A stretch of DNA of 64,000 bases, taken from Trichobilharzia regenti (taxonomy: Eukaryota; Platyhelminthes; Trematoda; Strigeidida; Schistosomatidae). Below the pieces are notes generated by a model. That model was not told the DNA's origin, searched no databases, and saw nothing but the letters and a program-made list of their open reading frames with translations. A program made the translations under genes and the position numbers. The DNA is taken from positions 1-64,000 of the forward strand of contig CALYDD020000353.1 of the NCBI GenBank assembly GCA_944472135.2, in the 5' to 3' direction. Positions 31,552-61,145 of this stretch are shown here, one piece after another; position 1 is the first letter of the stretch, and the number at the start of each line of letters is the position of its first letter.

Positions 31552-31590
31552 ACACCATTATATCACTAAACATTTTACACAATTGATATG
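31552..31590 (-). CDS. Micro-exon (39 nt)
   Basis: Acceptor attctggttag, donor ggtgt|gtaagtata, minus strand. It reads YQLCKMFSDIMV between split codons. A nearer AG would give 14 nt, out of register. This is the longest of the core series and contains one cysteine. Confidence 0.45.
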
Positions 31591-31604
31591 CTAACCAGAA
31601 TACC

Positions 31605-31790
31605 AATTGCTAATCTTGACACCGGATCGTTGGAGGTAAACGGCAGCAGGAAGCCTTGCCTCATCTAGGTTTCGCGCCAGTTGACAATCACCAGTAAGCA
31701 AGACAGGCGTATCGACAATCACCTTGACGGAACTCATGTCCCTTCTGAGATTGAAACTCCTGTCCAATACAGTCCTAAAGAAGGTTAGTT
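31605..31790 (-). mobile_element. SINE-3, minus copy
   Basis: Reverse complement shows gggacatgagttccgtcaag, then ctggtgattgtcaactggcg and cgaaacctagatgagg, the hammerhead-like motif of this family. The first SINE of an inverted pair. Confidence 0.65.
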
Positions 31791-31794
31791 GAGA

Positions 31795-32105
31795 ACCATT
31801 TATAGTTAAATGGCAATGCCACAGACTGCACAGACAGCACTGGGTGGATCGAATCTCAGCAAGGGGACATGAGTTCCATCACGATGACTGCAGATACGCC
31901 TACCATGCTGACTGGTGAGTGCTAAGTTAGGCGAGACTTGCTGTAGCCGATAGCCTTCAACAATCTAGCTTCATCAAATCAATGGTGTAATGCTACATAG
32001 AATATGGCTACATTGCAAACTCGACCGATAGAATTCAGTTTGCACCAAAGATAAGACTATACACAAACATCACACTAGTTACTGACAAGTATCCAATCAA
32101 CGTTT
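31795..32105 (+). mobile_element. SINE-3, plus copy
   Basis: It contains gaatctcagcaaggggacat, then the variant motif ctggtgagtgctaagtta (31912 onward). The flank gctacattgcaaactcgacc...tagttactgacaagtatcc is also found at 46.6 kb and, inverted, at 22.9 kb. Confidence 0.7.
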
Positions 32106-32252
32106 TCTTCTTCCCTGGTGGATGATCAGTGTACAACATATTATTTCAGCAATGTAATGTTTCGTCAAATACAGATGAAACTACCTCAAGATTTTGACAA
32201 GATCCTGTTGAAATAGAAGTACAATTGTTCAAAATATGTGTGTTCGACATAC

Positions 32253-32276
32253 CTCGAAAGTCGATTCCTTTCGGTT
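32253..32276 (-). CDS. Micro-exon (24 nt)
   Basis: Acceptor aatatcatattcag and donor ttcgag|gtatgtcg, both strong, minus strand. It reads PKGIDFR in the shared phase. This member uses GTATGT rather than GTAAG. Confidence 0.6.
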
Positions 32277-32749
32277 CTGAATATGATATTCTATTGACGC
32301 CATTGTATATGCTGAATGTCACTGGCCAGTCTACCTTTAACCACTTTTTACTTCTGTTGACGTGTCATCAGGAGATGGAATCAGTAAATCGAAAAGTAAA
32401 TTCTCATTTGAGCCAACTGAATGTACATTGAAGTAAATGCTAACGTTTGAAAATGAGATACTTTTTTGTGGATCAGAGTGTGTGCTGCTCCCACATATGA
32501 AATTTTGACAATTTTTCATTCATGTTATTGCATTAAGTGGTGATTAAATCCTGAGGTTTCATGGAAAACATTCGTATATCTTGTTGGCTTCGTCTTTTTC
32601 AAGTGTTGGTTTGCTGGATTTCGATTGGTTACAAGATTTCATCATGAGCTGATATCGGTTATATAAACATTTGGAAAACAACATGGGAATATTGAACATT
32701 GGGCTCTTCCGTCCTACTCAGCAACTTTTTTCAGTACGCACCAATCATA
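32277..32749. other. Intronic spacer
   Basis: The minus strand is open at 32337-32519 (60 codons) without a recognisable domain. Nothing else. Confidence 0.3.
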
Positions 32750-32895
32750 ATTATGTTAATCAAGGATCTTCACGTTACAAGGTGCACTCGTAGGCCATTC
32801 AGCCACTGGGACTCCATCCGATACCGAGTCCATGAATTCCGACTTCTGTCAATTCATGGTATAGTGGAGGGCACTAGTCCATTTCATCGATGACT
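32750..32895 (-). mobile_element. Sm-alpha-like SINE, head only
   Basis: Reverse complement gives the 5' extension and tRNA-like head (ggctgaatggcctacgagtg, then ccttgtaacgtgaagatcc). The hammerhead body is missing. Confidence 0.6.
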
Positions 32896-33019
32896 ATTTT
32901 ACCTCACACCCGATTCCGTTGTACTGCACTGCTCACGACGTTTCACTAGAACCCAGGTAACTTCTTACCTCGATAGTTTCACATCGTGAGTTGGTAGGGG
33001 TTGTAACTCATTGGCTGGC

Positions 33020-33160
33020 CGGTGGGTCATTTCTCAGTGGCCGATTGTTGTACGAGCTCGCCTTGTAACCGGGAGGTTCCGAGTGTGAACGCCTATGGAT
33101 GTGTATTACTGAAGGGTCCTAGTCTAGCACAAAGCAGCACAAAATACTCTAATATTAAGA
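33020..33160 (+). mobile_element. Sm-alpha-like SINE, degenerate
   Basis: tgtacgagctcgccttgtaa and ccgggaggttcc mark the head. The hammerhead region is reduced to tactgaagggtcctag...agcac. Confidence 0.6.
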
Positions 33161-33487
33161 GTCGTTATCCTAGTAGAGTTACCCTGTAAAGTGAAAAAGT
33201 TTACATTCCGACAGACGGGATTCTAATTAATACATCACATTTTAAAGCGTCAGGCAATATTTTCTTATATGATATATTCGTATCATGACTGATCCTAAAA
33301 CGATTAGCACATGGAATAATGTAGAAGCTGTAGGATGGCATTATTATTATCATGATGAGTGTACAGTTTTCCAAACCTCCTGATAAGTAGCACTGTCTCG
33401 CACCCAAAATTAAAAACAAATGTACATATTGAAATAGCGTTTTAAACATCAAATAGTAATGGTTAATTCAAACTCCTTAATTTCAGA

Positions 33488-33616
33488 AAAAAATGTCCAC
33501 GAATTACTGGACAAAAAGAGACTAGATGTCATTTTTCATACTCGACAAATGAATCCAGTGACGTCTTCGATGAGCAACTTAGTGTCTTTTTGCGGGAATA
33601 TGATTTACATAGTTGA
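33488..33616 (+). other. Possible plus-strand exon
   Basis: A good acceptor (aactccttaatttcag) precedes a frame reading ETRCHFSYSTNESSDVFDEQ and ending at TGA 33614-33616. A second frame is equally open across the same bases. No partner exon is evident. It is either a terminal exon of an unknown gene or chance. Confidence 0.15.
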
Positions 33617-34144
33617 GTTCATAGTCGCATATCCGTGGAGAATATCAAACTAGAACGAGACATCTGTGCATCATATCTTGGTTTTCAATGATTTTTTTAG
33701 ATGATGTCAGCTTGTGGCATGACCTTGGCTTTGGAATCATTCAAATACTAATACTAACCCAAAACATGATTCTGCCAGCTTGTATATTTTACCCGCCTTC
33801 TCATTTCTCTTGATCGAACATATAAAATTTGTAATCAGATATATATTATACAGCTTTTTATGAAATGATCCCTTTATTATTGTAATATGAAGCGACAATC
33901 ACTAGGTAAAACTAGTTTAGATTATTTGACTTTTACCGTAAATGGATTGTTCAACCGTATCTGTTCAGCCTGGTTCATCCGATCAAATCAGCTGTTTGCT
34001 GGCTTCAGTCGAAGATATTGTCTACAAATACTGTGACAGGTACACAATGAAACTGACCAGCTCAATAAACACAATGAAATCACAAACTGAAATACGCACA
34101 ATCAGTTTCAGACTCATCTGTTCTCTGCATTATTTAACTGAGTT

Positions 34145-34265
34145 CAAGGGGGCCGGAGTGAGTCGGTGCCACAGAGGTGAATTGCTCGCCAACCACGCCA
34201 CACGTGGTCCGGGGATCAATATCCAGCCACTGATGCACTCCGTTACCTCACTAAATCAGTAATAA
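34145..34265 (+). mobile_element. tRNA-like SINE family 2, plus orientation
   Basis: Reads agtcggtgccacagaggtga (A-box region) and ggtccggggatcaatatcc (B-box region, degenerate). The only copy of this family in plus orientation. Confidence 0.6.
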
Positions 34266-34634
34266 GACTGATAAAGAAGAAACACTGGACATGAGACTGG
34301 CGACCCCATTTTGAAAAACTAAACATGACTGCTTCCAAAATTCAAGCCTCTTACTTGAAGCTCTATGTATAGACTCGGAACGTATATGGATAAAAAGTGT
34401 GTGGGACGAAGTGATTGGCATTCAGTAATTCGTATTTGTTCTTTACTGAATGCGCCTATTTTCATTTCAACAGTGAACTCACAAGTGAGTACTATTTCAT
34501 CTGCAGACGTAGCACATTCAATGATTATGCACAAAGAAGGTATATGCATGTTATACATGTCGATTCCCTTAAACCGTAGGATTGATATTTACTCAAGCTT
34601 TACGAAGTCTATAAAATGAAGTTAAGGTACTTAC

Positions 34635-34661
34635 AGTCGTCATACATCTTATCAATAAGAT
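34635..34661 (-). CDS. Micro-exon (27 nt)
   Basis: Acceptor ctcaatgttctttcag and donor gacgact|gtaagtacc are both near-ideal on the minus strand. It reads LIDKMYDD in the shared phase. The next micro-exon upstream in the gene is only about 0.75 kb away. Confidence 0.65.
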
Positions 34662-35416
34662 CTGAAAGAACATTGAGATATATATGACATTCAAATCTCA
34701 CAACTGGTGGTGCGTAAACAATATTTGAATTTTGATATTCAGAAAGAATTCAGATGTCATGCACCAATTTCTGTGTGATATAATTTTCAGTCATATTTAT
34801 AACCACGTATTAATCAGTTTGTTATAGGTTTCGCCATGTATACGAATCACAACAGCCATTTGCCTTAGTAATTTGAAGCCTTTCTCTACATTACACAAAA
34901 CAGAAATGTTGTGAGTGAGAAAAACCACCATACGCTCGTTCACATGTATTCAAAATTAGCAATAGGACAATTCAGTCTGATGAAAGAACAAGGACAGTGC
35001 GGTGGAATTTGTTTCATATAACACACACAGTGTGAGGAATATCTATGACGACTGGATGAGTTTCAGAATATCACTTGATAAAAACAATATCATTGCTTGT
35101 GTAACTTCAAAGCTCATCGTAGAAGCCATGCGTTTCACTCAAGATGCAAAGAAATAAAATTTTAAAGAAGCATAAGTCTAAACGTCCGTCTTGACACTGC
35201 AAAAAAGATGAATATTCACAAATACTACAGACTGTATGAAGGGTCAAAAACTGAATATTCACTCTCTAATTCATTTCCTCTGTAATACATTTCGTTACTG
35301 CACTCATGAAAACAAAAGAAAACGTTAGATGACGTAACTTTATCATAACCTAAGATTTCAGCACGTACAAGAAAAGCTTTACAAAATGCTGATTAGTGTG
35401 AGGTTGAAGTACTTAC

Positions 35417-35443
35417 ACGCTTTTCGATTCTTAACATCAGAGT
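35417..35443 (-). CDS. Micro-exon (27 nt)
   Basis: Acceptor gatttctgttgttttag and donor aaagcgt|gtaagtact, minus strand. It reads SDVKNRKA. Length, phase and donor match the 34.6 kb exon. Confidence 0.7.
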
Positions 35444-36269
35444 CTAAAACAACAGAAATCGAATATCTCTCTTTTTAATATCGAGCATATGAATGACAGT
35501 TATCCATTAGGTTAAAAAAGGCAAATAGTCAGTTTTCAATGTAATAAAACTTTAGTCGATCAGTGAGGTGATGGTGAAGAGGATTCCACATCGAATCATA
35601 AGTGCTGTTTGCGAATAAAGCAAATCATTATTATTATGATTATTTGAATTTAAGCTCACTATAAAATAATTACTCTCATTTGATTGTATTTGGTCATGAC
35701 TTTCTTCACTAAATTTAGGCGGACCGCTCAGGTCTTTTTGTCACCTGATTTTCCATTGAGCACACTTTATCAAATTCACATGGTTAGTTCCACGTTGATT
35801 TTAATATCTAATTTCATCGTTGGATAACATTATGTATTTATGTGCAAATTGCAGTGTGTTTCCATCTACAGCTAGGCACGTTTTAAACGTATGAAATTGT
35901 CTTCACTTGAAGCATCTTGTAATATTTCAAGTAACATTTCGTTGAATGCAGACTGTCCTGCTTTAACGTTTCGTATAAGGAGTAGATTAAAGCTGACGTG
36001 AAATTCTTTATTGTATAGAAACATAGTGTTTCCAATAGGACGATGAAAACATAAGTGAATTCATCCTTAACTGGTAGCGTTACTTAACTGCTTTTTCAAA
36101 ATCTGCTTTTAGTTTTCTATCAGGAAATAAATTGACTCAGTTCATACTGAAGTACTTATTAACCATCTTCAACGTCAAATATTATTATCCAGCAGATCTC
36201 TTGTAAAGTATGATTGCCCTTTCTAGTCCTTCCTTTGCTAGCTTACTCAGCTTTTGTATATTTAAATCA
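35444..36269. other. Intronic spacer
   Basis: AT-rich; no open frame or repeat recognised. Confidence 0.4.
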
Positions 36270-37005
36270 GGCAGTCAACGACATTGTTTGGAGTAAACAC
36301 AGGAGTGATAGAAGGGTGCTTATTATCATCAGTGATATTCCTAATTGTGGTGGACTGGATTATTCGTCAGACAAAGTGAAACAAGAAGACAGGGATATCT
36401 TAAACCAACGTGAAGAACCTGGATTTCGCGCGCGGATGATTAATGCTAGATGTCGTACAAAATCGAAGACTTATAAGCTAAAACCGACAAACTGCTCGAA
36501 GAAGCAGCCGGCGAAGACAGGACTCCAAATGAACATAGACAGGACGGAGTTGATAAAAATAACCAACCAACCAACCAACATCAACAACAACAACAGCAGC
36601 AACATCCAGCGCCAATTACCATCAACGGGAGGGGTTTGAATTAGGTTCCTGCATTCACTTATCTAGGGATCATTGTCTCAACTACAGGCAGTCGGAACGG
36701 ACGAGGATGTCAAATCGAGCGAGAATCGAGAAGGCGAGAAACACATTCATCAATCAACCTGAAACAAACAATCTGGAAATCTTCGTCATTCAGCATCAAC
36801 AACAAAATTCGGATTTTCAATACAAATATCAAGTCAGTCAGTTCTTCTATACGGACCAGACACTCCGCGGGCGGGTCACAAATAATATTTCCAACAGCAT
36901 GTTACAGACCTTTTTCAACAACTGTCTTCGCTATGTACTGAAAATCAGATGGCTGAGCCGGAAAGAATCACCAGCAAGAGATTATGGGAACAAATAAACA
37001 AAACA
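36270..37005 (+). mobile_element. RTE-clade LINE, 3' half, decayed
   Basis: GVIEGCLLSSVIFLIVVDWI (36310-36360) begins the RT block. The catalytic box is broken. A repetitive linker (ITNQPTNINNNNSSN) lies at 36560-36605, then FTYLGIIVSTTG, and at 36890-36970 NNCLRYVLKIRWLSRKES. It ends at ggaacaaataaac. Frameshifts are frequent. Confidence 0.8.
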
Positions 37006-37113
37006 ATTTAAGTAGTATGCGATAAAACTGGGTAGTTTTAATTCACTGGAAGTTAAGCTAAACTGCCAGATTCCCACTGAATTACCCATACTCCACAATA
37101 AACAGGGGCTTAC

Positions 37114-37137
37114 CTTTCATAGCACAGAGAAATAAAC
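37114..37137 (-). CDS. Micro-exon (24 nt)
   Basis: Acceptor attttttttcatcttcag-like (aaatttttttcatcttcag) and donor atgaaag|gtaagcccc, minus strand; one of the clearest pairs in the window. It reads LFLCAMK in the shared phase, with one cysteine. Confidence 0.7.
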
Positions 37138-37527
37138 CTGAAGATGAAAAAAATTTATGCAAAATCCTTACTGATTCAGTAATGGGAAGGCACGTCAGCA
37201 GTTTACATTTTTGTTTCATGTCTCTCAACGCAAACTTTGAATAATTCGAGCAGCTTGATATTAGTGTGGTACACAAGTGTGTTGTAAAGAATAGACACTC
37301 TGCTCAAAAATGGTTGAACCAGTTTTACGCTTATTATGCGGCTGGAATTCAATGATATGATTTACAATAAATTATCTGTGGTTTGTTAAATTAGGTTCTA
37401 CACCAAGATCTACTCCACATCATGTTTTTTTGTGAGTGGATCTTAGCTGTGAGAAGTAATATTCAGGTTTTCGTATGCGATAAGGTATGTATGTGGAGGA
37501 CACCTGCTTAATGATAAAAGTCTTCGA

Positions 37528-37788
37528 ACAACTTAGTTTAGGTCATCCATCTGTAAGAATTTCGAACTCAATTTGTTGCATAATGTGTTCCAAAGATTCA
37601 TCCGACGAGAGGCTAACTCTACAGGACTGCTTACTAATTTCAATAGGTGTGTGTTAGTTAGGAGTAGCAAAGACTTTATTCGATATCACCTAAATTTTGC
37701 GATTGCCAATGAACTCAGAAACCATCTAATAAACCTAATTAATGCAGAACGTGTTGATGGAAACCTGAAACTTAAGTGTGGTAATCAC
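37528..37788 (+). other. Unrecognised coding-like stretch cut by a SINE
   Basis: A frame of about 87 codons reads, for example, LLTNFNRCVLVRSSKDFIRY and NFAIANELRNHLINLI. The start has no ATG, and a weak acceptor (gtttag) precedes it. The SINE at 37.79 kb truncates the right end. I do not recognise the protein. Confidence 0.2.
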
Positions 37789-37978
37789 CAGTTGCTAAAC
37801 GGTATATGAGATTTTCTTGTAAGCAGGAGGTCCTTGGTTCGAACCTCGGTGTATGAGTACTGTGGAGAGTCTCAAACTAGGATGAAACAGCAGTACAGTA
37901 TTCCCAGGTTTTCCAGTTGTTCTCTAACTGATGTCAGCTCATGATGAAATCTTCCATGCAATTGCAAATTCATTCAGA
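37789..37978 (+). mobile_element. Sm-alpha-like SINE
   Basis: The B-box-like sequence tggttcgaacctcgg, the body gagagtctcaaactaggatg and aaacagcagt, and the tail gctcatgatgaaatc are clear. The CTGATGA element of the hammerhead is lost (tactgtggagag). Confidence 0.75.
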
Positions 37979-38603
37979 TTTCACATATTTCTATGGAGCT
38001 GATTACTTCGTGAGTAACCTAGACCTGCAAACGGCTTTCTCCGAATTTATTTTCCTTTCTGAGAATGAGAATGTGAGGCATTTTCACAGGAATATACCTG
38101 TAGTTCAACAACGGAGCACCTTGTGAACTCAAGATATTCAGCTCATATTGAGACAACTGACCCATTGAAGTCCATTCAAACTAGTGATATCAAGACATCT
38201 GGACATAGCTGAAGCATGAATTACACAAAAATAAGTAAACTTATGCTAGACAAAAGAAAGGTGCTCTATCCATTTATTTACAATGATCAGCATAAATATT
38301 CGTTGTTCTGAACAGAAGTGTGATCATCCGAATAATTATGTTTTCGATATCCTCTTTTGTATCTATCGGATTCATTTTGTTCCTGGCCATATTTTGACGC
38401 CCAACTCGAAACGAAGCTCTAAAGGTTCCTCCCTCCTACGTTAGACGTCCACAAAAATGTATGACCTAGTTAGTGTTTTCATCTGTGGAGAAGATTTTCA
38501 TTCAGCTGCTACCGTCTTCTAATTAGTTATTTTGTGATCTAGTGGATGAGTTACAAAATATAATACAACAATATATACACCAATTCGAAATCAAAGGCCT
38601 TAC

Positions 38604-38627
38604 AGCTTTGAAGTTCTGAGTCGACAT
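38604..38627 (-). CDS. Micro-exon (24 nt; 12-nt alternative)
   Basis: Acceptor ccttcctgttacattag (strong) and donor aaagct|gtaaggcc, minus strand. It reads VDSELQS. A second AG inside would give a 12-nt exon in the same phase (LQS), a possible alternative acceptor that also keeps frame. Confidence 0.55.
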
Positions 38628-39524
38628 CTAATGTAACAGGAAGGAAATTAAATCCAATATGCTCAACATTTCTTCAGTAAAATGTTTATATATATATATA
38701 TTAGAGCATCTTTAGAAATTTCAGTGAAGTTATGATCTCAACACACACACATATGTAAGAATTATGTAGACAGCAGAATTTTAAGCTAGAGTGAATTTAC
38801 ACGTGTTGGGTCTGTGAGGATCTGATCAGTTTTAATATGAGTTATCCTAAGAGTCACAGGGGTTATAGCAAGTAGATGTTTTGTCCTTGTTTTCGACTTA
38901 TAAACAGCATATATGAACATGACCCCAGAAATATTTGAGATATGGTCTGCAGGTTACCAGTCATGTATTTTATTCATTCATTTAGTGTTTCAAAAATCTA
39001 GGGATAGTTCAACTGGGATTTCCGACACTTACCACTACCCCGTCTCCACCGACTACCACAAAAACTAAGGCATCAATCATCTTCACAAATGACCAAGGTG
39101 AAACATACTGGTCATCACTTCATTCAAAGGCAAAAGAGCTGCTCAACCGATCCTAGTTTTCAGTCATACTCTAAATGATGTAGGTTTCAGCCATACCAGC
39201 ATTCTATGCATATAATCGACTTTTTAAATACAATTATATTCCCTGTCTCTGGTATCAAATAATAGTACAGTTTTAACAAACTTCTGTGTTTCACCATAGA
39301 TAACTCAGCAGTGTCAACATTCCCTGGACTTTACAAGTCCTATCTTTATTCAGCAGGTTGGTGTTAACTAACCAACCAACCAACTGACAAATAAAAACCC
39401 ATTCAGACAAATTTCCTACAAAACCAATACTTGAGAAATGTCGGATGCTCACTAGCGAGTCACCGTTTCCACGCAGTTACCTAGGGTTCTTGTATAGAGC
39501 CATGAATTATGGGGTACAACAGTT
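38628..39524. other. Intronic spacer
   Basis: It contains a short TA run (38689-38701) and a GC-richer patch at 39030-39060 with a donor-like minus site that fits no symmetric exon. Confidence 0.35.
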
Positions 39525-39850
39525 TGAAGGTGAGAAAAATTACTCGTCGAAGAAGACATTGCGAAGTGGTCATGCTGTGTCATGAATTGACAGGAGTTTG
39601 GATCCATAGACTAGGCATCGGATGGTGTCCCAGTGACCTAATGGTCTACGAGCTAGCCAGCCTTGTAACCAGATGGTCCTGGGTTCAAACCATGACGATG
39701 GATGCGTATTCGTAATGAGTGGCGAATTCGGAAAAGATAGCTGGCTGTCCAGTACTCCCAGGTGGTTAACCCACGGTTCTCTCACCTATGTAAGCTCATG
39801 ATGTTATCCTCTAACCAATCAAATAAAATCCCTACAATCAATACGTGACA
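39525..39850 (+). mobile_element. Sm-alpha-like SINE, long form
   Basis: 5' extension (actcgtcgaagaagacattg), head (cctaatggtctacgagctag, then gtcctgggttcaaacc), degenerate hammerhead region (tcgtaatgagtggcg...aaaagatag) and tail (aatcaaataaaatccctaca). Confidence 0.8.
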
Positions 39851-40869: not shown

Positions 40870-40896
40870 ATATATCTTTTTTAGTAGGAGATATAA
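40870..40896 (-). CDS. Micro-exon (27 nt)
   Basis: Acceptor ttttcttttacacttattag (strong tract) and donor gatatat|gtaagaatt, minus strand. It reads ISPTKKDI in the shared phase. Confidence 0.6.
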
Positions 40897-41265: not shown

Positions 41266-41868
41266 TCACTCGTAGTTTAGACGATGGCATATCTGTATAT
41301 CGGCATTCCTGATAGTTCACTTTGACACACTTGAGGCTAAGGTAGCTGGTAAAGAGCAACAGCTAACGAGTATTCGATTATTTCAAGGAGAAGTCTTCAC
41401 TATCATCGCCTTAGTCTATGGCATTCTATCACGAGTGTGAGTAACTCAAATTACAATCATTTAAATTATAGAGTCTGATATACTGTAAGTATACTTTCCA
41501 TCATAATTTTTTTTCACCAAATCTCACAAAAGTGTTGGTTCATAAACCAGCAGAATATGTATATTCAACTCATAGGGAAATATGAATTGTTCAAATTTTA
41601 TTTGTAGTGTGTTCGAATAACTTCTAAGGAAGTGTTTTTTCTAAAACGGTTGCTTTGTCAGTTCTTTTCATCTCACGTAATTAGTTACACTTAAGTGCTA
41701 GACAGCAGTGGATCCAGAGGTGAGCGTCTCGTTTCAACTGTTAAAATTAATAGTCGATTAATATGAGAAATAAATGACTCCTAATTTTATGAATGATGGA
41801 CATCCACGAACAAATCTGTGAATAATTATTTCAAACGAACAGGATACATCTCATTGGAAATCGCTTAC
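41266..41868. other. Intronic spacer
   Basis: AT-rich; nothing recognised. Confidence 0.35.
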
Positions 41869-41892
41869 GATATTGATTACAGTATATCTTGC
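41869..41892 (-). CDS. Micro-exon (24 nt)
   Basis: Acceptor tttcatctacgtgttcag and donor aatatc|gtaagcg, minus strand. It reads KIYCNQY, with one cysteine, in the shared phase. Confidence 0.6.
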
Positions 41893-42689: not shown

Positions 42690-43925
42690 GCAAAATAGGA
42701 TACAAGAATCCAACAAATCCCTATCTTTCTACATGACCTACCGTCTTCAAATGACATTAACTTTGTCAAATATGCTGATGACCTAACTGTATCTTTGCCT
42801 GTCAAATGTCAAAGTGACTGCTCTAAACTAAATGGCTTCTTATCGGAAATTAGCCAATGGTCCAAGGAAAACGGTCTAACCTTAAACCCCTCCAAATGCC
42901 AAACAGTTAATTTCACCCTTAGGCATAAATCTGACCTAAACAAACTGGTTAGCACTCACGAGGTGTGCAACATAGATGGCAGTGAAATAGAAACCAAGTC
43001 GGAAATTAAATACCTAGGCGTCACTTTATCTTCTGATCTTTCCTGGTCGTCTCATATCTTGACGATTTCCAAGAAAATATACCGTCTTACCTTCTACATC
43101 AAGAAGTTAAGACATTCTGGTGTAACCCAACCCTTACTCTTACAATTTGTTAACTCCCGTATTCTGCCTATTATTCTCTATTGCTCCCCCTTAGTCTTTC
43201 CTGGGCTATTGAAGAAAGACTATACCTTATTACGTAGGATGTTAAAGGTTGTCAGCAGGGTAAGCAGTTTGCCACTTAGCCAGCTTGTTAATATTCTGGT
43301 GGACAGGCATATGGACTCATGTGAAAAATGGGCGAAATCCATTTTATCTGACTCACAACACCCTCTACATTCACAACTCTCCCCATGTATCTCTTCAGGG
43401 AAAACAAGAAGCCTATATAGGAAACTATATGCCCGCACTAGTAAGTACAAAAACTCATCCATACCCTACCTAGCCCGTGTTCTGTGCGATAAAGAATGCA
43501 TCAGGCATGAAACCTTTAACTTATTAAATAGTCAGTAGAACCAATGGATCTCGTCTTTCCAACTCACATCATTTATAGGTACAACGTTTTCTCGCTCTTC
43601 ATTCTGTATTTATTTTTGTTATGTGCTGTTTTGTTTCTCTCTTCCTTGCAAACTCTACTTAAAACATTCTTGTTCGTTCTTTCACACTCTGTATATCTCG
43701 ACCATTTTGCTATCGCTTACGCCAGTAAATATGCTAGTAGTATCTACTTTTCTAACACCTTCAAACACTTTAATTTTGGCTTTGCTACCGACATACTAAT
43801 ATGTTGTAGAACTTTATTTATTGTTAATGTAAAAAACTGGATGCAATATTGTAGTAAAATGCTGAGAATTCCATTCTGTATCACAAGTACTGATTTGGAA
43901 TAAAGCTTATATTATGTTATGTTTA
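42690..43925 (+). mobile_element. CR1-like LINE, 5'-truncated, young-looking
   Basis: A reverse-transcriptase C-terminal frame is followed by an approximately 380-bp 3' UTR. The element ends with ttggaataaagcttatatta and a short (TTATG)n tail, as CR1-type elements do. The coding frame is uninterrupted over 280 codons. This is the least decayed retroelement here and probably the most recent insertion. I saw no clear target-site duplication. Confidence 0.85.
42697..43538 (+). CDS. CR1-like reverse transcriptase, C-terminal part
   Basis: The frame is open from about 42697 to TAG at 43536-43538. It starts mid-domain: FLHDLPSSNDINFVKYADDL contains the catalytic YADD box at about 42771-42782. Next come LTLNPSKCQTVNFTLRHK (the KC motif after the palm) and IKYLGVTLSSDLSWSSHI, the LGV...W..HI motif of CR1/Jockey-type elements. 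The thumb and C-terminus follow, with RILPIILYCSPLVFPGLLKK. No endonuclease or zinc-knuckle region is present because the copy is 5'-truncated. The protein would be a fragment without an initiator and is probably not made. In full-length relatives it copies the element's RNA at nicked target DNA. Confidence 0.85.
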
Positions 43926-44973: not shown

Positions 44974-44991
44974 TGTCACAATTTTCGGCGC
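44974..44991 (-). CDS. Micro-exon (18 nt)
   Basis: Acceptor ctgtgttgtgctag and donor tgaca|gtaagtctg, minus strand. It reads AENCD, with one cysteine. Confidence 0.5.
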
Positions 44992-45093
44992 CTAGCACAA
45001 CACAGATTTATATTCTACTGTGAATCATATTGCTCCCCACCGATAATAAGCATTGACATAAGAATAAAACTTGTGTACTCTGGTAAAGTTTAA

Positions 45094-47261: not shown

Positions 47262-47455
47262 AAGGACCAGTGGCTCAATGGTCTACGAGCTCGCCTTGTA
47301 ACCAGAAGGTCCTGGGTTCAAATCCCGGTGGGTGCGTACTGATGAGGAGTCCCAAACTAGGACGAAACAGCTGTCCAGTACTCCCAGGTTTTACAGGGGT
47401 TCTCTAACTGATGTCAGCTCATGCTTAAATCCTCCATGCAATCAAATATTTGTTT
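47262..47455 (+). mobile_element. Sm-alpha-like SINE, best-preserved copy
   Basis: The A box tggctcaatgg and B box gggttcaaatccc form an internal pol III promoter. The hammerhead-derived body and a tail (gtcagctcatgcttaaatcc) follow. It is used here as the reference for the family; at least 15 further full or partial copies are listed. Confidence 0.85.
47339..47375 (+). ncRNA. Hammerhead-derived motif with 3-nt insertion
   Basis: CTGATGA (47339-47345), then an extra GGA, then a perfect 4-bp stem II GTCC/GGAC with loop caaacta. GAAAC (47364-47368) and palindromic ACAGCTGT ending in the GTC triplet at 47373-47375 complete it. The insertion sits between A9 and the first stem II pair, where active hammerheads have none. 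RGA insertions at the same place occur in the copies at 18.56, 53.17 (minus) and 53.49 kb. Confidence 0.6.
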
Positions 47456-48813: not shown

Positions 48814-48831
48814 CTAAGCATCCAAGTGCGC
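48814..48831 (-). CDS. Micro-exon (18 nt)
   Basis: Acceptor ttattttttttaattttag-type (strong T tract) and donor gcttag|gtaaaattt, minus strand. It reads ALGCL, with one cysteine. Confidence 0.6.
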   Translation of the reverse strand, partial: AHLDA

Positions 48832-49264: not shown

Positions 49265-49288
49265 AAAGTCGAGTCTGAACTGGTCCAT
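49265..49288 (-). CDS. Micro-exon (24 nt)
   Basis: Acceptor tttttttttcatttcag, the longest T tract in the series, and donor gacttt|gtgagttta, minus strand. It reads GPVQTRL. This member uses GTGAGT. Confidence 0.65.
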
Positions 49289-52300: not shown

Positions 52301-52368
52301 AATATTCTGCTAACAGTAGCAACATTTAAAATTATGCATCAAAACAACAGGTGTTCTCGTTAACTTAC

Positions 52369-52389
52369 AAACACGGCAAATCGATCTGC
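52369..52389 (-). CDS. Micro-exon (21 nt)
   Basis: Acceptor tttttttattaacatattag and donor gtgttt|gtaagttaa, minus strand. It reads RSICRV, with one cysteine, in the shared phase. Confidence 0.6.
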
Positions 52390-53040: not shown

Positions 53041-53265
53041 TTTTGTAGGGATTAAGTTTTACTGGATGGACGATAACATCATGTGCTGACATCAGTTAGA
53101 GAACAACTGGAAAACCTGATGTATCGGAAATCTATTTCGTCCTGGTTTAGGACTCTTCATCAGTGCACACCCATCACCAAAGTTTGAGCCTAGGACATTC
53201 TGGTTACAAGGCGAGCTAGCTCATAGACTATTTAGCCACTGGACTCAATTCTATTCAGGCAGTGA
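53040..53265 (-). mobile_element. Sm-alpha-like SINE, minus copy
   Basis: Reverse complement shows head gctagctcgccttgtaacc, ctgatgaagagtcctaaacc and ggacgaaatag, a near-complete hammerhead body with the same 3-nt insertion, then ctaactgatgtcagcacat. Confidence 0.75.
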
Positions 53266-53284
53266 CCTGGTATTCTATTGCGAA

Positions 53285-53615
53285 GCCGTTAAAAGGAGGG
53301 TACAGAAGGTTGAAAATGAGGCAGTAACTCATCGAAGAAGACTTTCCGAAATGGTCAAGCAATGTCGTAAATTTGCAGAAGTTAGAATTCATGGCCACTG
53401 AATCAGTTCTCAGTGGGTAAAAGGTCTACGAGCTAGCTCGCCTTGTAACCAGAAGGTTCTGGGTTCGAACCTCGATGGGTGCGCACCGATGAAGAGTCAC
53501 AAACCTGGAGGAAGCAGCCAGTTTTGCAGTACTCCCAGGTTTCTAGTGGTTCTCTAACCGATGTAAGCTCATGAAGAAATCCTCAATCGAATATTGAATT
53601 CTATCGTGTCAGATT
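53285..53615 (+). mobile_element. Sm-alpha-like SINE, long form
   Basis: 5' extension (gaggcagtaactcatcgaag), head (tacgagctagctcgccttgt, ctgggttcgaacctcg), body cgatgaagagtcacaaacc and tail gaagaaatcctcaatc. With the preceding minus copy it forms a head-to-head pair. Confidence 0.8.
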
Positions 53616-54239
53616 TCTCACCATGTAATGGATTAATTTATATTAGCCTACTAATCCTATAATTATGTACCCCTTTCCTGCATCAGTACGTCTTATGTAT
53701 TATTCCATATACGACGTTAATTGTTTTGCTACTTGACATTTAACTATGATTATAGTGGCGAACAGTTTAATTTTAATTTCATTTCATACTACTATTATTA
53801 TTATTTCATGTATTGACACCTTTGATCTAACTCCACCACCTGGTAAAATTTCTTAAAAAGGCCATTTTTATGTAGAATTGTACAGCTTGCAAATGCATTC
53901 GTTGTTGAAAAGAGTCGCTTTGCTGAATATTGTGTTCTTAATGCTACAATGGGAATTATTAATAAATTACTAACCTAGTTATCGTCATCCTACAGAATAA
54001 CAGGATCTATAAAGTCACGTTTGAAAATCAACATGGTAGACAGAGGACAAATATTCCTGCCAATCAGCTCAACACAACCATCGCTACACTGGCATACAGG
54101 CTTCCAAGTCGAACACTTCGAAAGTATACCGGTAAGATTGAAACATTACAAATTAATCATTTAAATGAGGTAACAGGAGGAAGATAAAAACATTTATTTA
54201 TTTATGGGATCCGAATTTTTATCACAAATCTTAAGTCAC

Positions 54240-54655
54240 TCATTTCTTCAGTATGGGTCATCAACGCACTGTTAGTCACAAAAGGCACTTGCAGCAAACC
54301 CCTGCAGACGTTTATCATCAGCTGCGGATTTCGTGGCATACTGAAGATCAAGCAGCTAGTTAGAAAGGGATAGCAAGAATAAACCATGGGAACAAACTAA
54401 CTAACATCAAGGACATATTGCTCAGCAATTTATGACGAAGGCGATGGACACAGGCGATCAAATGGGCGCAAGATCAGAGCGCCAGTGAAAAACCAAAATG
54501 AGACGACGACTTGAGTGTGAATCAAAGTGTGACATGGAGGAGATCATATAATATGGACAACCATGAGGTCAGCTTTAGACTACGCAGAAAGTCGCACAAA
54601 GTGGAGATGTGCTGTTGAAGCACTTGGAACCCGAAGGAACAATAGTTATATATAT
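54240..54655 (+). mobile_element. RTE-clade LINE, 3' fragment, decayed
   Basis: cagacgtttatcatcagctg...tactgaagatcaag corresponds to the family's FINSCLRSILKIRW block. gtgtgacatggaggagatca (VTWRRS) and ccgaaggaacaatagttata mark the C-terminus and tail. Confidence 0.7.
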
Positions 54656-54998
54656 AAATATATACTTTACTGTGTATGAGACTACTCATATGACTAATTT
54701 TAAGGTGAAATATCTTTTCATGATGATAGTAAGACTAAAAGCATTTGAGAACTTTTCAAATCCAAAGGCAACTGCTCAAGAAAAATTATCTTAAACAGCT
54801 TCTTTATTTCGTCAGAATCAGCGTAACAGTATTTCTCAAAGAATAAGTTAAACTGGCGAATAGTTACTAGCAGTGGAATCTAGGGTGCACATTTCATCTT
54901 TTTCGGGACTCATCCATCCTGGATGTACCTGTATTCCGCAGGCAAAGTTGAATTAAGGAGTTAAATGTTTAACGAGTTATTTGACCGTTCGACATCAC

Positions 54999-55043
54999 GC
55001 AACACATAATGCTAGAACACATGGATTACATGTTATGTGTTGC
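54999..55043. repeat. Short perfect hairpin
   Basis: gcaacacataa (54999-55009) and ttatgtgttgc (55033-55043) are exact inverted copies around a 23-nt loop. No associated gene. Confidence 0.8.
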
Positions 55044-55389
55044 TTGCCTTCTACAAGCAGACACACACACGCACATAGAAAACTATCAGGCAAAATTCCC
55101 ACCTTATTAAGCAGCACTTTTTTCAATTATTAGCCTAACATCATCGAAGTTCAATTCAACCTTGGAACATGATTCATGTTCACCAGAAGTGGTCACCGCA
55201 AAACGCTTAGGATCAAACACATATACGTTCACATGAGTTAATGCATTGCGCGTGAATATATGGAGTTATCAGTGATGTCGTCAAAGCTCTGATTGAATCA
55301 ATCTCACACTGCGATCTGAATAATTCCTGACTTTAAAGAGTAAGTTACTTTGCAGGAATACACAATACATTCAAGTGTTTGACTGTAGG

Positions 55390-55600
55390 GAATTTGATTT
55401 GTGTTCACGTTTTCTGAACACCAATTGACATCAGTTAGAGGACCATTGTGAAACCAGGTGTTTCGTGCTGTTTTGGGAGTCACCAACGCTACCCACCACC
55501 TACCCATTAGGTTTCAAACAGTGGGCCCTCATGTTGCATGGCGAACTCGTAGACCATTCAGTGAATGTGGTCCGTCTCAGTTCCTCACGAACAAATGAAA
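55390..55600 (-). mobile_element. Sm-alpha-like SINE, degenerate minus copy
   Basis: Reverse complement shows gaatggtctacgagttcgcc, then a body reduced to gactcccaaaacagcacgaa acacctgg and gtcctctaactgatgtc. Confidence 0.6.
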
Positions 55601-55799
55601 TCCTTACAATAAAACTCATGAAAATTAATCTGACGCTTGCTAGTCACTGGCTCAAGACAGAGTTTCCTAGAGTTCTAATGAGAAGTTGTCACCAATGCTG
55701 TCAACCTTGTGAGTCATTAGGGTGAGGACCAATACATGCCAATGTCCTTGGATAGTGATCACGCTAAAATGGTGATTTTTTAAAAGTTTGAATTCATGA

Positions 55800-55970
55800 A
55801 CCACTGAGTTAAAATTGCAGTGAGTGAATGGTCTGTTAGCGTACCTTGTAAATGAAGGGAAGTGCGCTTGAAACCTCGTAGGTGGGTACTGCCAATGAGT
55901 CCGAAACAAGGATGAAACAACCATCCAGTAAACGCTGTGGTTTTCAGTGTTAATTATATCAGTATTTTTT
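55800..55970 (+). mobile_element. Sm-alpha-like SINE, degenerate
   Basis: Head tggtctgttagcgtaccttg and body tactgccaatgagtccgaaa caaggatgaaac. The GTCC/GGAT stem II region is kept but CTGATGA is altered. Confidence 0.6.
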
Positions 55971-57329
55971 TTAATTGAATCTGAATACACAATAGCATGA
56001 TTATATTAAGCCAGTGTTCAAGCCTATCTGAATTGAAATGTTATCTGAGTGAAAAGTATTCACATTCATGCAGTCCATTTACTTGACAAGGTACGATATT
56101 CCATCTAGAAAGAGGTTTCTTCTCGTTGAATTCATCTTGTTTTCCACCAGGATGGATAGCACTGAATGGGTTCCACTTGGTTAAAGTACCACCTCTCTAT
56201 GCTTTCTTGTATTCCTCCCTCCTAATCATCTTCTGTTCACATATGAGTAGGCTTTAGAAAACTGAGATACACTTCTGTTGTATAAATCCTAATTGATGAA
56301 AAAAGAAAAGCGAACTCTCTTCAAAGAAATGCTCATGGTGAGTTACTCAAAAGTTCAACTCACAGTTTATCTTAATATTAGGATCTACAAAATAAAAAGA
56401 ATGAAAATAGATGAGAAGAATCGTTTTTCACACACTGTTTTACTAAACTGAATCAAATTTAGTGCAAAAAAGTTTTTCTTAGATAAAATTAGTTCTGACA
56501 AATTCCTAAAAATGATGAAAGATCTCTATGTATGTGTCATACTGAAGGCATCCTTTCTCTTTGAATGCTTCAATAATTTTCTTTGCGAAATTCAATGTTG
56601 AAATTACGTTGGTTTTGCTGATATCCGGATAGGTTTTTCTTCCATTTTTCATAAACTGATATGTGAATAAAGGAAACTAGTGTAGATCGTGATGAACTGC
56701 TGGACATCTGTTACAATCAAATTGACCTATCACCAAAATCGACTGTAGCACGTTTTCGCATAGGATGTTTAGGCTGTGCTCAAGATATTTTAAGCATTTA
56801 GTTAGTCAGCAGTTTGGAGTCTGATGGGACTTCATATTCGTTTTGTAATCCAACCTTTTCCTAGGAAATTTAATGAAAGCGTGTACACTGATGGTGAACA
56901 CAGATGCACACGAGTGATACTGAATAGTTGTAATGGTATAATAATTAAAAAGTCATAAAATCTAGAATCCCTGAATGACAGACAGAATTTCAGTTAACCG
57001 ACTGAGTAATCTAATCAGCTCTGTGAATTGTATGCGAAATGACATATGCTTGACCCTTGATAAGTTTGCATATGAACACTGCTATGTAGCCCCAGATGAG
57101 GGAGGAAAGATGGAATGAATTCATCGGGTTGACAACTCAAAAATTTATCCCATAAATATCAGTTTTGCCTATCACCATAACCGTTTTGCTTAAATTCGCA
57201 AACAAAATAAATATTTCATCATATTTTCCCCATTCTAGCAGTAATCCATGACTAAGCCTCAACCAATTAAATTTCGCAAACTACCTCTTGAAATTTCATC
57301 TGAAGCCTAACGTTCTTCATTATTGTAAG
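55971..57329. other. Long intronic spacer
   Basis: 1.36 kb of AT-rich sequence without open frames of note, micro-exon signals or recognised repeats. Confidence 0.4.
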
Positions 57330-57505
57330 CCAAATGTTCTGTTTTCGAACTCCGAAGGCCACATTCCATTGAAGAGTCGTGAACTAGGATGAAACAGCAT
57401 GCAATTGTTCGCTGCGTTTTCAGTGATTCTCCGAACGATGAGTCAGCAAGTGAACGAACTTATGAAATTATTAAATCCTCATAAACTATCTCATGAATAT
57501 TAATC
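57330..57505 (+). mobile_element. Sm-alpha-like SINE, degenerate
   Basis: gaagagtcgtgaactaggat gaaacagc and tttcagtgattctccgaacg. The tRNA-like head is mostly lost. Confidence 0.6.
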
Positions 57506-57689
57506 TGAACCTTGCTGGCGACTGACTACACAGATAGGTTGCTTGAGGATTTCTAATGAGAAGTCATGATCAGCAGGCCACACAAGGTAAGGTATGAGGG
57601 CAAGTAGTTTACAACGACACTGCATGGATGCTGCACAATATATCGTGAATTAACAGAGGTTCGAGTTAATGGACCATTGGTTTCTTGCC

Positions 57690-57805
57690 CAAGTAGATGA
57701 ATGGACAGGGAGCTTGGTCTCGTAATCAAAAGTTTATCCGTGCGATACTCGGTGGATGTCTCTGATGGTGAACATTAAATAGTTTAGTTATTCGGACTGG
57801 TCTCC
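57690..57805 (+). mobile_element. Sm-alpha-like SINE head remnant
   Basis: agtagatgaatggacaggga (A-box region), gcttggtctcgtaatcaaaa and gcgatactcggtggatgtct follow the family order but are strongly diverged. Confidence 0.4.
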
Positions 57806-58069
57806 ATTGGTGGAAGATAGGAAAGCTGTCATTGCTTAATCGTGTCCTGGCTCAAAGAAGACTGGATAAGTACGATTGAGAGAATCGCTGTACATTATAT
57901 CAACGGTTATTTATAGCCTTTGGCACTGATTAACCATTGTAAATCTCTTTCGTTATCGCTTGAAGAATGAAAAATCATGTTGCCCAACCGTCTTCTGTTA
58001 TTCTACCTTGGTTACAATGCATAATGTGTTAAGCTTAGTCATCTGAAATCAACGATAGGTCCAAGATCC

Positions 58070-58205
58070 CTGGACATTTGACAGTGGACCGGCGGGTGTG
58101 TAGCACCAGAGTGTTCTAGACAAGAGAGAAACAACTACCAACTATTCCCCGGTTTCCAGTGGTTCTCCAACTGACGCCAGTCTGTGATATAACTTGAACC
58201 AAAAC
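58070..58205 (+). mobile_element. Sm-alpha-like SINE remnant
   Basis: gtgttctagacaagagagaa acaac and ggtttccagtggttctccaa ctgacgccag match body and tail. The hammerhead core is lost. Confidence 0.5.
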
Positions 58206-58550
58206 AAATTGACGGAAACAAACCCTTGAAAACTAATTTTTTTCTGATCAAAGCCTCATGTAGATGATGTGTCTTTACTCCGTCACCAATTATTCATACA
58301 ACCATCTGTTTCTGTATTTGTCTCTGATGCATTTAACAAGAGTAATAATTGCACAAATCTACATGATAATTATCAAAATGTAAAACTTCTTACGTAAGTG
58401 TTTACAAAAGGTCGCACCTTCAATCGGAGAAAAAAATTGTGATATATCCACTTTCAGTATTACTAATGAATAAATATGCACTACTGAAGTAAATATTATA
58501 AAGCATGAGAATTCTATGTTAACAGTATGTTGTATTAGTAATTAACTTAC

Positions 58551-58559
58551 ATTCCTCAT
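58551..58559 (-). CDS. Candidate micro-exon (9 nt)
   Basis: Strong donor (ggaat|gtaagttaa) but a weak acceptor (tgcaattcaacag). Nine nt would add EE in the shared phase. Low weight. Confidence 0.2.
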
Positions 58560-58644
58560 CTGTTGAATTGCATTTAACCAATGATGACATTTGTATGAGT
58601 TAGGAGGTATAAACACAAGGAGTTTGTATCATATTGCTAATAAT

Positions 58645-59060
58645 CAAGTATTGATTTTGTAGGGATTTTCACTGAGTGGATGGAGGATTTCATCATCATG
58701 AACTGACATCGGTTAGCGAATCAATGAAAGACCTGCAGCGAATACTGGAAAGCCAGCTGTTTCATCAGCCTAGTTTGAGACTCTTCTGAGTACGCACCAA
58801 CAACCAGTCTTCAAACATAGGATCTTAAGGTAACAAAGCGAGCTAGCACATAGACCGTTAAGCCACTGAGACCCAATCGAATGACCAGCCCATGAATTCT
58901 AACTTCTGCCACTTCGTAATGTCTTCTTAGATGAGTTACTGACTGCCTCCAATTCAGCCAGCTGTACCTTAATGGTCAGGGCTTCCCACCATAACCCCAG
59001 GTTGCTGCGTGAATAGGACCAGTCGCTAGTGAGCCTCGGAATAATTTTGTAGGGATTTCG
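58645..59060 (-). mobile_element. Sm-alpha-like SINE, long form, minus
   Basis: Reverse complement shows the 5' extension (gaggcagtcagtaactcatc), head (gctagctcgctttgttacc-like), gtactcagaagagtctcaaa ctaggctgatgaaacagctg and tail (gttcatgatgatgaaatcc). The hammerhead region is rearranged. Confidence 0.7.
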
Positions 59061-59239
59061 TTTATTTGGAGTTTGATGTGGAGTTTGACGTGATGCAGTC
59101 ACGCAAAAACCAGATAAGTGACAAAATGTGGGTAAATTCAAATCGTCTACTCTACTCACGCATGATGAAATAGGGCTTAGTAAGTTGACAAAATAACCAG
59201 CTAATAACCTGGCGTTTTTACTGACTTGCTAGTTTTCTA

Positions 59240-59880
59240 ACCGCTATTGGGCTGAGCAATAGGAAAGAGTGAAGGTTAAGCATGGGACTAGAGCTTCTAC
59301 TCCTGAAAATCAGTACAGTCGCTACAGACACTTCAAAGCAAAAGAACAACATAAAAACCGAAATTTATTCTTAGCTGGAATCGTAGCGACGAAATATCAC
59401 CGGATTTTAAACTCCACTGTGAGGTCAGTGATACTATACGGAACAGAGACTTGGAGCGTCATAAAGGGCACCTCAAAACAAATGCAGACCTTCGTCAACA
59501 GCTGTCTTCGCTCTATACTCAAGATCAGATGGCCGACCAGAAAAGATCAGCGACAGAGTTCTCTGGCAATGAGCGAACCAACGAAGTACCGATTTTGAAA
59601 CAAATAGGCAGGAAGAAATAGAGATGGATTGGCCATACGCTGATAAAACCATCAAGTGACATCACTACACAAAGCATTGCTCGAGTGGAAACTGAAAGGG
59701 AAGCAGCGAGTTGAACGTCAGTGCAAGGGTAAAGTGGAGGAGGTCATGTGAAGAGGGAATGAAAGCATGTAGGCAGACTTGGAGTGGGGAGAAAAAGTTC
59801 GCAGAAAACAGAAGGCAATGGAGGTGCGCAGCTGAAGCCCTATGTTCCTCTAGGAACTAAAGGATATAATAATAATATGA
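59240..59880 (+). mobile_element. RTE-clade LINE, C-terminal fragment
   Basis: It begins at the FQLKNIWKSK-like region (cattcaaagcaaaagaacaa). An open stretch follows (59269-59598) with HRILNSTVRSVILYGTETWS and TFVNSCLRSILKIRWPTRKD. It then reads gtggaggaggtcatgtgaag (WRRS) and ends tctaggaactaaaggatataataataa. Frameshifted after 59598. Confidence 0.8.
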
Positions 59881-60620
59881 CATCAAAGCGGCAATGTGAA
59901 ATCACACTAAACCACCTTCCTTGGTAAGCTGTGTTTCGGTACCAGCCAGAGGAGATGTACTATTACCTCTCTTCTTTGGTTTAGTGATCTTCATTGTTAT
60001 TGTGACCTTCACTATGTCCTTTTAACCTGATCTAACAAATCTATTTTCTCACCTCTTAACTCTATATGATTTCATATGTATTCCTACCACAAATCTGTGT
60101 GTGATCAGATTGTTTGAAATGTGTTACGCAAAAATACATAGACGATCCAGACAAATTACGTCATCTTATTGTTTTGTCTGAATTCATAAAGGGAACTACT
60201 TTTTTAACTCTCAACAAAATAGAAATGAGTAGTACTTACGATTCTTGCGATCGACAAACTAACTGGTCTGAAGCTATTCAGGGAAATTACTCGAAATTAA
60301 AATAACAAAGTTCTGTATATATAGAAAAGGAAATCTCTTATTTTCAAAATGTTATCTGATCATATGAGTCATGAAATAGACATCAATATCTGACTGAAGT
60401 TTACAAATATTAGTTTTCATTTGTAAAACGCTGTATTCGACGTGAACTTTTCCTTTAGATTTCTAGTAATTACGTTCTACTAAAACTCTTTGGTCGTAGA
60501 TAACTGAATATGAAATATATATGTATGTGTATATGCAGAAAAAAAAAAAGTTTGTATGAGGAAAAATTGTAAATCATTTGTTAGTCTCTCCACCATAAGA
60601 AGATACAGACAATTGGGAAT
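59881..60620. other. Spacer with one coding-like plus-strand frame
   Basis: The plus-strand frame 60114-60305 (KYIDDPDKLRHLIVLSEF, CDRQTNWSEAIQGNYSKLK) follows a modest acceptor (ctgtgtgtgatcag). No ATG, no partner exon, and no recognised family. Confidence 0.2.
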
Positions 60621-61018
60621 TTAGAGCAACGACGACTGATCAGCGATACATATCCATTTTCTATTATTAATCAGGACTTGCCACGCATCAGGTTCACACA
60701 CATACACATGTAGGGCATCCGGAGTTAGTCTTTCGTTATATGAATCGAAAACCTTTCTGTGGAAACTTAGTCCTATCAAAGTCGATTTCGTACGGCGTTT
60801 CTATCACGTCGCGTGTGATCACTGATCTGTTATCTAGCTTCTTCAAGTCTGCAGAGATCTTAAGACCTAAGACCTACTTCTCACTTGGTGTCAAAGTACT
60901 TTTGGAAGTATTCAGTTAAATCTTGATCACAAGTCAAAGGATTTATTATTATTGCATTGTACAAAATGAGTATCCAAATGTTATCGTTCCAAGCTGCGCA
61001 GTCAGTTGACATTAAACC
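60621..61018 (-). pseudogene. Coding-like minus-strand stretch, unrecognised, probably decayed
   Basis: Three coding-like segments follow on the minus strand. Segment 1 is 61018-60881: STDCAAWNDNIWILILYNAI, DLTEYFQKYFDTK, stop TGA, preceded by a strong acceptor (tttttttttacttcatcatttttaag). Segment 2 is 60873 to about 60740: GLKISADLKKLDNRS, ETPYEIDFDRTKFPQ. Segment 3 is about 60750-60621: DSYNERLTPDALHVYVCEPD, NNRKWICIADQSSLL, stop. Frames change between them without room for introns. The amino-acid make-up looks genuine, but I recognise no family. It could be a nested gene relic or an exon of the MEG locus with frame errors. Confidence 0.4.
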
Positions 61019-61127
61019 CTTAAAAATGATGAAGTAAAAAAAAAAACGTCTTCTAATCTGACAACTTAACATTCCACAATCAAAAGATGATGCACATGGC
61101 AGAAAAGACAAGTTTAATCTTACTTAC

Positions 61128-61145
61128 CTCGTTTACCCTCAACAC
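61128..61145 (-). CDS. Micro-exon (18 nt), most 5' of the series
   Basis: Acceptor aatcgtctacatttcag and donor aacgag|gtaagtaag are both near-ideal on the minus strand. It reads VEGKR in the shared phase. No upstream exon with a signal peptide could be found between here and 64 kb. Confidence 0.65.

Follow-up and report, generated by a model that had tools for sequence, protein, structure and literature searches.

Structure of the gene

The window analysed here is the first 64 kb (positions 1 to 64,000) of the 283-kb contig C337 (CALYDD020000353.1) in the assembly of the schistosomatid fluke Trichobilharzia regenti, which comprises 954 Mb in 548 contigs. An earlier reading of its letters alone, referred to below as the original prediction, had marked an array of short intervals on the minus strand as a probable micro-exon gene (MEG). 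We find that the minus strand between 62.9 and 31.3 kb very probably holds one complete micro-exon gene of a schistosomatid, and we put the probability of this reading at about 0.92. Exons are numbered 1–14 along the full minus-strand model, and the micro-exons are numbers 2–13. The gene spans 31.5 kb with introns of 433–4743 bases. Spliced together, the 14 exons give a single frame from ATG to stop, with 111 codons followed by TAA and nine cysteines. Twelve of the exons are 18–27 nucleotides (nt) long and of phase 1-1, and they contain 273 of the 334 coding bases before the stop junction. The gene structure, the frame and the family of copies rest on sequence comparison. The encoded small, cysteine-rich protein is probably secreted.

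Because a single sequence cannot separate exons from chance, we compared paralogues. Close copies of a 1-kb piece of this region lie on C3, C337 and C178. Genome-wide searches were then made with 221–267 bases around single exons, namely micro-exons 2, 3, 4, 5, 8, 10, 11 and 12; the place counts include the window itself. Seven of these searches gave 12, 9, 10, 9, 9, 10 and 9 places. The eighth, for micro-exon 4, gave 41 matches, of which 13 span the exon and the other 28, each of 45–62 bases, belong to a dispersed repeat that flanks it. All exon-covering places (9–13 per exon, including those 13) lie within a cluster on C3:8.40–8.88 Mb, C337 or C178, so the exon neighbourhoods are not dispersed repeats. 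Part of the places were fetched, and 81 paralogous sequences were examined for the 12 internal exons; BLAST hits were dropped unless they spanned the exon and four bases on each side. The parts of the gene are as follows, with the residues encoded and the paralogues that keep the exon.

62883..62890, minus: TATA-like box TATATAAA, 27 bases before the ATG; present in 4/4 other copies fully reached (E, L, C178, C3:8576k)
62795..62855, minus: exon 1, with ATG, hydrophobic leader MFLRVLTFPFFLSVWHFQTV and one further base; phase-1 donor GTAAGTTGT; from hydrophobicity and paralogues
61128..61145, minus: micro-exon 2, 18 nt, VEGKR; borders and length kept in 8/8 paralogues; 9 places
56364..56384, minus: micro-exon 3, 21 nt, PNIKIN; borders kept in 4/5 paralogues, copy H being without the donor; 9 places
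52369..52389, minus: micro-exon 4, 21 nt, RSICRV; 9/9 paralogues; 13 places
49265..49288, minus: micro-exon 5, 24 nt, GPVQTRL; 11/11 paralogues; 12 places
48814..48831, minus: micro-exon 6, 18 nt, ALGCL; 10/10 paralogues; donor weak past the GT
44974..44991, minus: micro-exon 7, 18 nt, AENCD; 4/4 paralogues (C178, E, B, F)
41869..41892, minus: micro-exon 8, 24 nt, KIYCNQY; 8/8 paralogues; residues highly variable among copies
40870..40896, minus: micro-exon 9, 27 nt, ISPTKKDI; 4/4 paralogues (C178, E, B, F), copy B one codon shorter
38604..38627, minus: micro-exon 10, 24 nt, VDSELQS; 7/7 paralogues
37114..37137, minus: micro-exon 11, 24 nt, LFLCAMK; borders kept in 5/7 paralogues; acceptor GG in two near-alike copies
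35417..35443, minus: micro-exon 12, 27 nt, SDVKNRKA; borders kept in 8/8 paralogues; internal 1-base deletion in copy E
34635..34661, minus: micro-exon 13, 27 nt, LIDKMYDD, last base T; 4/4 paralogues (C178, E, C337:261.9k, F)
31340..31511 (3' end approximate), minus: exon 14, terminal, with the 3' untranslated region (UTR) and AATAAA at 31374 and 31356; acceptor kept in 8/8 paralogues

The surroundings of exon 1 (241 bases) occur at 11 places in the genome, some of them partial. Its donor is GT in four of the six paralogues read and CT in copies E and F. At the other end, the exon 14 acceptor at 31511 is preceded by a strong pyrimidine tract, and the first bases of this exon, AA, complete the stop after the T of exon 13, so that the stop codon spans the final junction. 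Exon 14 begins with AA in seven and with GA in two of nine sequences, and all nine contain at least one AATAAA. Four exons of this model (the first exon, micro-exons 3 and 7, and the terminal exon) had been missed by the original prediction.

Conservation of borders, length and frame

All eleven intervals that the original prediction had named are bordered by AG/GT when read from the sequence; on the minus strand each stays open in the 2-1 frame and is divisible by three in length. The paralogues supported ten of them as exons: 61128–61145, 52369–52389, 49265–49288, 48814–48831, 41869–41892, 40870–40896, 38604–38627, 37114–37137, 35417–35443 and 34635–34661. The remaining one, 32253–32276, did not hold as a micro-exon: the donor GT is absent in 5/5 paralogues, the AG is also absent in one of them, and at least two copies are without the stretch. 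The end that had been given to the array at 31552 was likewise lost, since the donor there is GA, not GT, in 7/8 paralogues. A terminal exon running from 32276 downwards was rejected; it would begin at a weak acceptor, the stretch is missing from copies B and C, and the strong acceptor at 31511 is kept with poly(A) signals in 8/8 paralogues. Candidate extra exons at 41331–41345, 32937–32945, 45041–45079 and 31904–31921 were discarded, their borders or lengths being lost in some copies. A possible optional exon at 34483–34500 (minus, 18 nt, EIVLT) has AG and GT in 4/4 sequences including the window; its donor is weak in one copy, it has no other support, and it was excluded from the model.

Over the 81 paralogous sequences, the border bases are the same at 322 of 324 positions, and both exceptions represent the same change of the micro-exon 11 acceptor in two near-alike copies. 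Of the 81, 80 have a length that is a multiple of three, the exception being a 1-base deletion in copy E, and none contains an in-frame stop (0/81). The intron flanks of the same copies are about 91% identical. Counted by alignment column, 2/48 border columns vary as against 336/1363 in the intron flanks (p 2e-4) and 81/273 in the exons. This test depends less on the relatedness of the copies than do the per-sequence counts; it adds three micro-exon 3 copies (H among them having lost the donor), and one copy-F sequence of micro-exon 3 is counted twice.

As a strand control, conserved AG..GT intervals of 9–48 nt were collected alike on both strands, with both borders present in the window and in a paralogue and with copy lengths equal or differing by a multiple of three. 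On the minus strand, the intervals that are multiples of three and open in phase number 16/42, 15/30, 14/27, 9/15 and 7/10 at minimum splice scores of 3, 4, 5, 6 and 7, respectively; on the plus strand of the same alignments they number 3/27, 2/18, 1/12, 1/7 and 0/1. The Fisher p values at cut-offs of 3, 4, 5 and 6 are 0.013, 0.006, 0.010 and 0.059, so the difference is significant at 3–5 and not at 6. The weights of the splice score are untrained, and scoring of the single sequence did not favour the strand of the array: at the lowest cut-offs, 6/10 intervals are open on the plus strand at 1–31 kb vs 6/11 here. The strand control and the conservation of borders in paralogues bear out the claim that the array goes beyond chance.

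The rate of change was estimated from copy pairs at least 4% apart in their flanks. The pooled proportions of nonsynonymous (pN) and synonymous (pS) differences are 0.138 and 0.166, respectively, and the intron divergence is 0.120. The pooled ratio of nonsynonymous to synonymous rates (dN/dS) is 0.81 (bootstrap 0.43–1.61), and dN over intron divergence is 1.17 (0.69–1.92). In seven of the 12 exons (4, 7, 8, 9, 10, 12 and 13) pN is higher than the divergence of the flanking intron, and in five (2, 3, 5, 6 and 11) it is lower. Raised dN/dS has been reported for MEGs in excerpts of PMC4350168.

Relation to known micro-exon genes

Three features related to mobile elements lie on the plus strand of the window.

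42699-43538, plus: reverse-transcriptase-like open reading frame (ORF), in the intron between micro-exons 7 and 8
47336-47381, plus: hammerhead ribozyme of type I, matching Rfam RF00163 at 50 bits; lies in the intron that separates micro-exons 6 and 7
30415-30870, plus: reverse-transcriptase-like ORF, judged by eye only

The best named relatives of the reverse-transcriptase ORF at 42702–43538 (+) come from T. regenti, at 80% identity, and from T. szidati, at 88% across a smaller part of the query, and its remaining named matches are from Trichobilharzia and Schistosoma. These relatives point to a schistosomatid in or near Trichobilharzia, which infects birds. This ORF and the hammerhead bear out the presence of transposon pieces in the introns, as had been proposed. 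The accompanying claim of an unusually large locus with introns up to about 9 kb was not borne out, as the longest intron is 4743 bases and the range of 0.4–4.7 kb is ordinary for MEGs. The classification as a probable micro-exon gene itself was upheld by the symmetric phase-1 micro-exons with kept borders, the first exon with a hydrophobic leader, the 3' exon with poly(A) signals and the clustered copies.

By its anatomy the gene fits the schistosome MEG class, and it looks like a new family. Excerpts of two sources describe MEGs as having 10–20 very short exons, mostly multiples of three, with introns of about 0.1–5 kb and signal-peptide products, and as forming tandem clusters with species-specific duplications and transposon enrichment, including short interspersed nuclear elements (SINEs) that bear hammerheads (PMC10526429; PMC4350168); such SINEs are reported in one of them to be enriched in the MEG loci of S. 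mansoni (PMC4350168). The window gene resembles this class in its 14 exons, 12 of them of 18–27 nt, in introns of 433–4743 nt, in its clustered copies and in the intronic hammerhead. Like the class it is clustered among transposons, with 9–13 places per searched exon and the two intronic elements. It differs from the class in the size of its micro-exons, since most of those of S. mansoni are given as 15 nt in the same excerpts (PMC10526429; PMC4350168), and in a protein for which no similarity to an annotated protein was found. The MEG-1, MEG-3, MEG-9 and other 'red clade' families of S. mansoni contain cysteines, as does the window protein (PMC10526429, in part), in which the motifs of that clade are not visible by eye. 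The same excerpts place MEG-1 and MEG-3 on S. mansoni chromosome 3 (PMC10526429); C3 is here an assembly number only, and no synteny with that chromosome is claimed. The nine cysteines of the window gene, four of them split across junctions, and its split stop, described below, may also set it apart. Ten MEG transcripts in T. szidati and four in T. regenti have been reported, some not close to known S. mansoni MEGs (PMC6362228, in part), and the window gene may be one of these. Among the papers listed by searches of the open-licence literature, we recognised none on this locus.

Alternative explanations

The alternative that survives best, which we nevertheless hold to be unlikely, is that a working gene lies elsewhere in the cluster and the copy in the window is a duplicate of it that is silent or in decay, or another haplotype; its exons would then be real by descent. 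Other copies do show losses: micro-exon 12 carries the deletion in copy E, the micro-exon 11 acceptor is changed in two copies, and donors are lost at micro-exon 3 in H and at exon 1 in E and F. In addition, the 5' half of the window copy is 92–100% identical to C3:8808–8822 kb. Against this explanation, all 14 exons of the window gene are intact, with every border present and no stop. The window gene is an intact member of a cluster that holds decayed copies.

It appears very improbable that the gene, although spliced from micro-exons, falls outside the MEGs as strictly defined, as would be the case if a tract of micro-exons had been joined to another secreted-protein family. The VAL-6 gene of schistosomes has been described as a composite with a micro-exon tract (PMC4350168, in part), and the lack of a sequence match to any named family would fit such an origin; in our model, however, the first exon encodes nothing but a leader, the last supplies the 3' UTR, and only micro-exons stand between them. 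The idea that these are short chance AG..GT intervals, selected by eye in an AT-rich stretch of 30 kb, which might have drawn support from the failures at 32253 and 31552 and from the single-sequence scores of a plus strand later found to hold a second gene, has practically nothing left to it in view of the border, length and frame conservation in 81 paralogous exons, the strand control and the column test, and for ten of the eleven named intervals it is refuted by the paralogue comparison together with the column test.

Several points weigh against the interpretation as a complete micro-exon gene. The copies are not independent, and some are possibly alleles. Gaps occur in 2/97 exon sequences vs 9/187 flank segments of equal length, which is a weak difference. 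The hydrophobic leader, seen in 7/7 copies read, was judged by hydrophobicity alone. Positive selection was not demonstrated, and the pooled dN/dS of 0.81 is by itself no proof of selection on the protein. Since some copies have decayed, the window copy could be silent. Finally, no named relative of the protein was found: there was no match in Pfam, PDB or a library of 5.8 billion proteins, Schistosoma and Trichobilharzia entries included, the library search requiring shared 5-residue words and similar length, so that distant or misannotated members could escape it.

Copies, leader exons and probable neighbouring genes

Within C337 the region is repeated collinearly, in whole or in part. C337 and C178 may contain other haplotypes of the C3 cluster, and the number of genes per genome is therefore uncertain. 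A long direct duplication on C337 joins about 101–127.5 kb and 187–213.8 kb, is 96–99.8% identical in its largest pieces and holds the 5' exons of two minus-strand copies.

Copy F (C3:8666–8704 kb, minus) has all internal exons and the terminal acceptor, together with a second type of leader. In both E and F the donor of the common leader is lost, and about 3 kb upstream lies a different leader exon (MFLGFLIVILFLQAY, phase-1 donor) that has a TATA-like box of its own. A leader exon sought in the window by similarity to this upstream leader of copy E was not found; the window gene has its own leader at 62855. The second-type leader is 67% alike to a first exon located at C3:8225 kb (MPMLFKCLVALLFLLAY), and that exon in turn has six further relatives at C3:8.14–8.40 Mb.

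C337:217460 (plus), C337:127875 (plus) and C3:8703.9 kb (minus): second leader exon type, copies E and F
C3:8143668, 8190768, 8225045, 8269938, 8333444, 8345944 and 8395644: seven related leader-type first exons, from similarity; only the one at 8225 kb was read

These similarities suggest that a further group of such micro-exon genes probably adjoins the cluster, and a leader akin to those of that group appears to have been acquired by E and F. Downstream of the leader at C337:127875 the place searches gave no exon match; an interval resembling micro-exon 11, LFVCAKT, lies at C337:161804 on the same strand.

A second gene on the plus strand

The plus strand at 470–23510 holds a diverged second gene of the same make, in which exons like micro-exons 5, 7, 8 and 11 follow in order.

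470..493, plus: like micro-exon 5 (GSAQTRY vs GPVQTRL)
5744..5761, plus: like micro-exon 7 (VSPCY vs AESCY); weak acceptor
9627..9650, plus: like micro-exon 8 (EKYCRQF vs KKYCHQF)
15807..15830, plus: candidate micro-exon WQNDIHN; strong borders, no exon likeness
17280..17303, plus: like micro-exon 11 (FYRCGMK vs LFLCAMK)
20332..20358, plus: candidate micro-exon YDIASFQL, last base T; strong borders, no exon likeness
23379..23510 (end approximate), plus: candidate terminal exon, begins AA, AATAAA at 23502; strong acceptor

Among open AG..GT intervals of 15–39 nt on the plus strand at 1–31 kb, 4/23 reach a similarity of at least 0.5 to an exon of the first gene, a threshold set after the first matches were seen. 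The controls gave 0/28 on the minus strand of the same stretch, 0/17 on the plus strand at 31–64 kb, and 1/71 and 0/47 on the two strands of C337:107–187 kb. In the candidate terminal exon, AATAAA lies 123 bases past the acceptor at 23379, an arrangement as in the first gene. This acceptor is one of three strong ones listed in 17–31 kb, of which another (27028) also begins AA. A counterpart of micro-exon 6 was not found on the plus strand at 1–31 kb. Since the contig begins at position 1, the 5' exons of this gene are missing.

Junctions and possible exon skipping

A transcript of the minus-strand gene would start from the TATA-like promoter, with a first exon coding for the hydrophobic leader; the twelve symmetric phase-1 micro-exons of 18–27 nt would follow, and the terminal exon would complete the stop codon with its first two bases and provide the 3' UTR. 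If all exons are included, the product would be the cysteine-rich protein of 111 residues. The internal exons are all 1-1 symmetric, and AA, AG and GA are not the first bases of any of them, so that any subset can be skipped without loss of frame; if transcription, secretion and skipping follow the behaviour of MEGs, a set of related small secreted proteins could result. Joining of any earlier to any later exon is possible in 91 ways. None of the 78 joins within exons 1–13 creates a stop, and the eight joins that do create one each unite a T-ending exon with the terminal exon, which starts with AA or GA and thus gives a stop after T in either case. When the terminal exon is joined after an exon ending in G, A or C, the frame would continue as xERMRNK before a stop.

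For four of the nine cysteines in the full product, a junction divides the codon (T|GC or T|GT). Three of these junction cysteines each open a CxxxC pair with a cysteine inside the next exon, and every copy read in which the exons concerned are present keeps the bases for the three pairs and for the stop. The fourth, after exon 1, is not kept: H has serine there, as does the second type of leader. Skipping of a T-ending exon before an exon that begins with GC or GT may delete a junction cysteine, and ending on a G-, A- or C-ending exon instead of one ending in T would add the short charged tail xERMRNK. From this arrangement we raise, as a tentative and rather doubtful idea, that the choice of exons rewires disulphides and switches the C-terminus through junction-borne cysteines and stop.

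Micro-exon genes are hard for gene finders, and at this locus a very probably complete one and its relatives were read from raw sequence, while being absent among the annotated proteins searched. The many alignable copies open the way to measuring the evolution of a micro-exon protein at the interface between worm and host, and the cluster allows one to ask whether cysteines and stops placed at junctions are edited by skipping.

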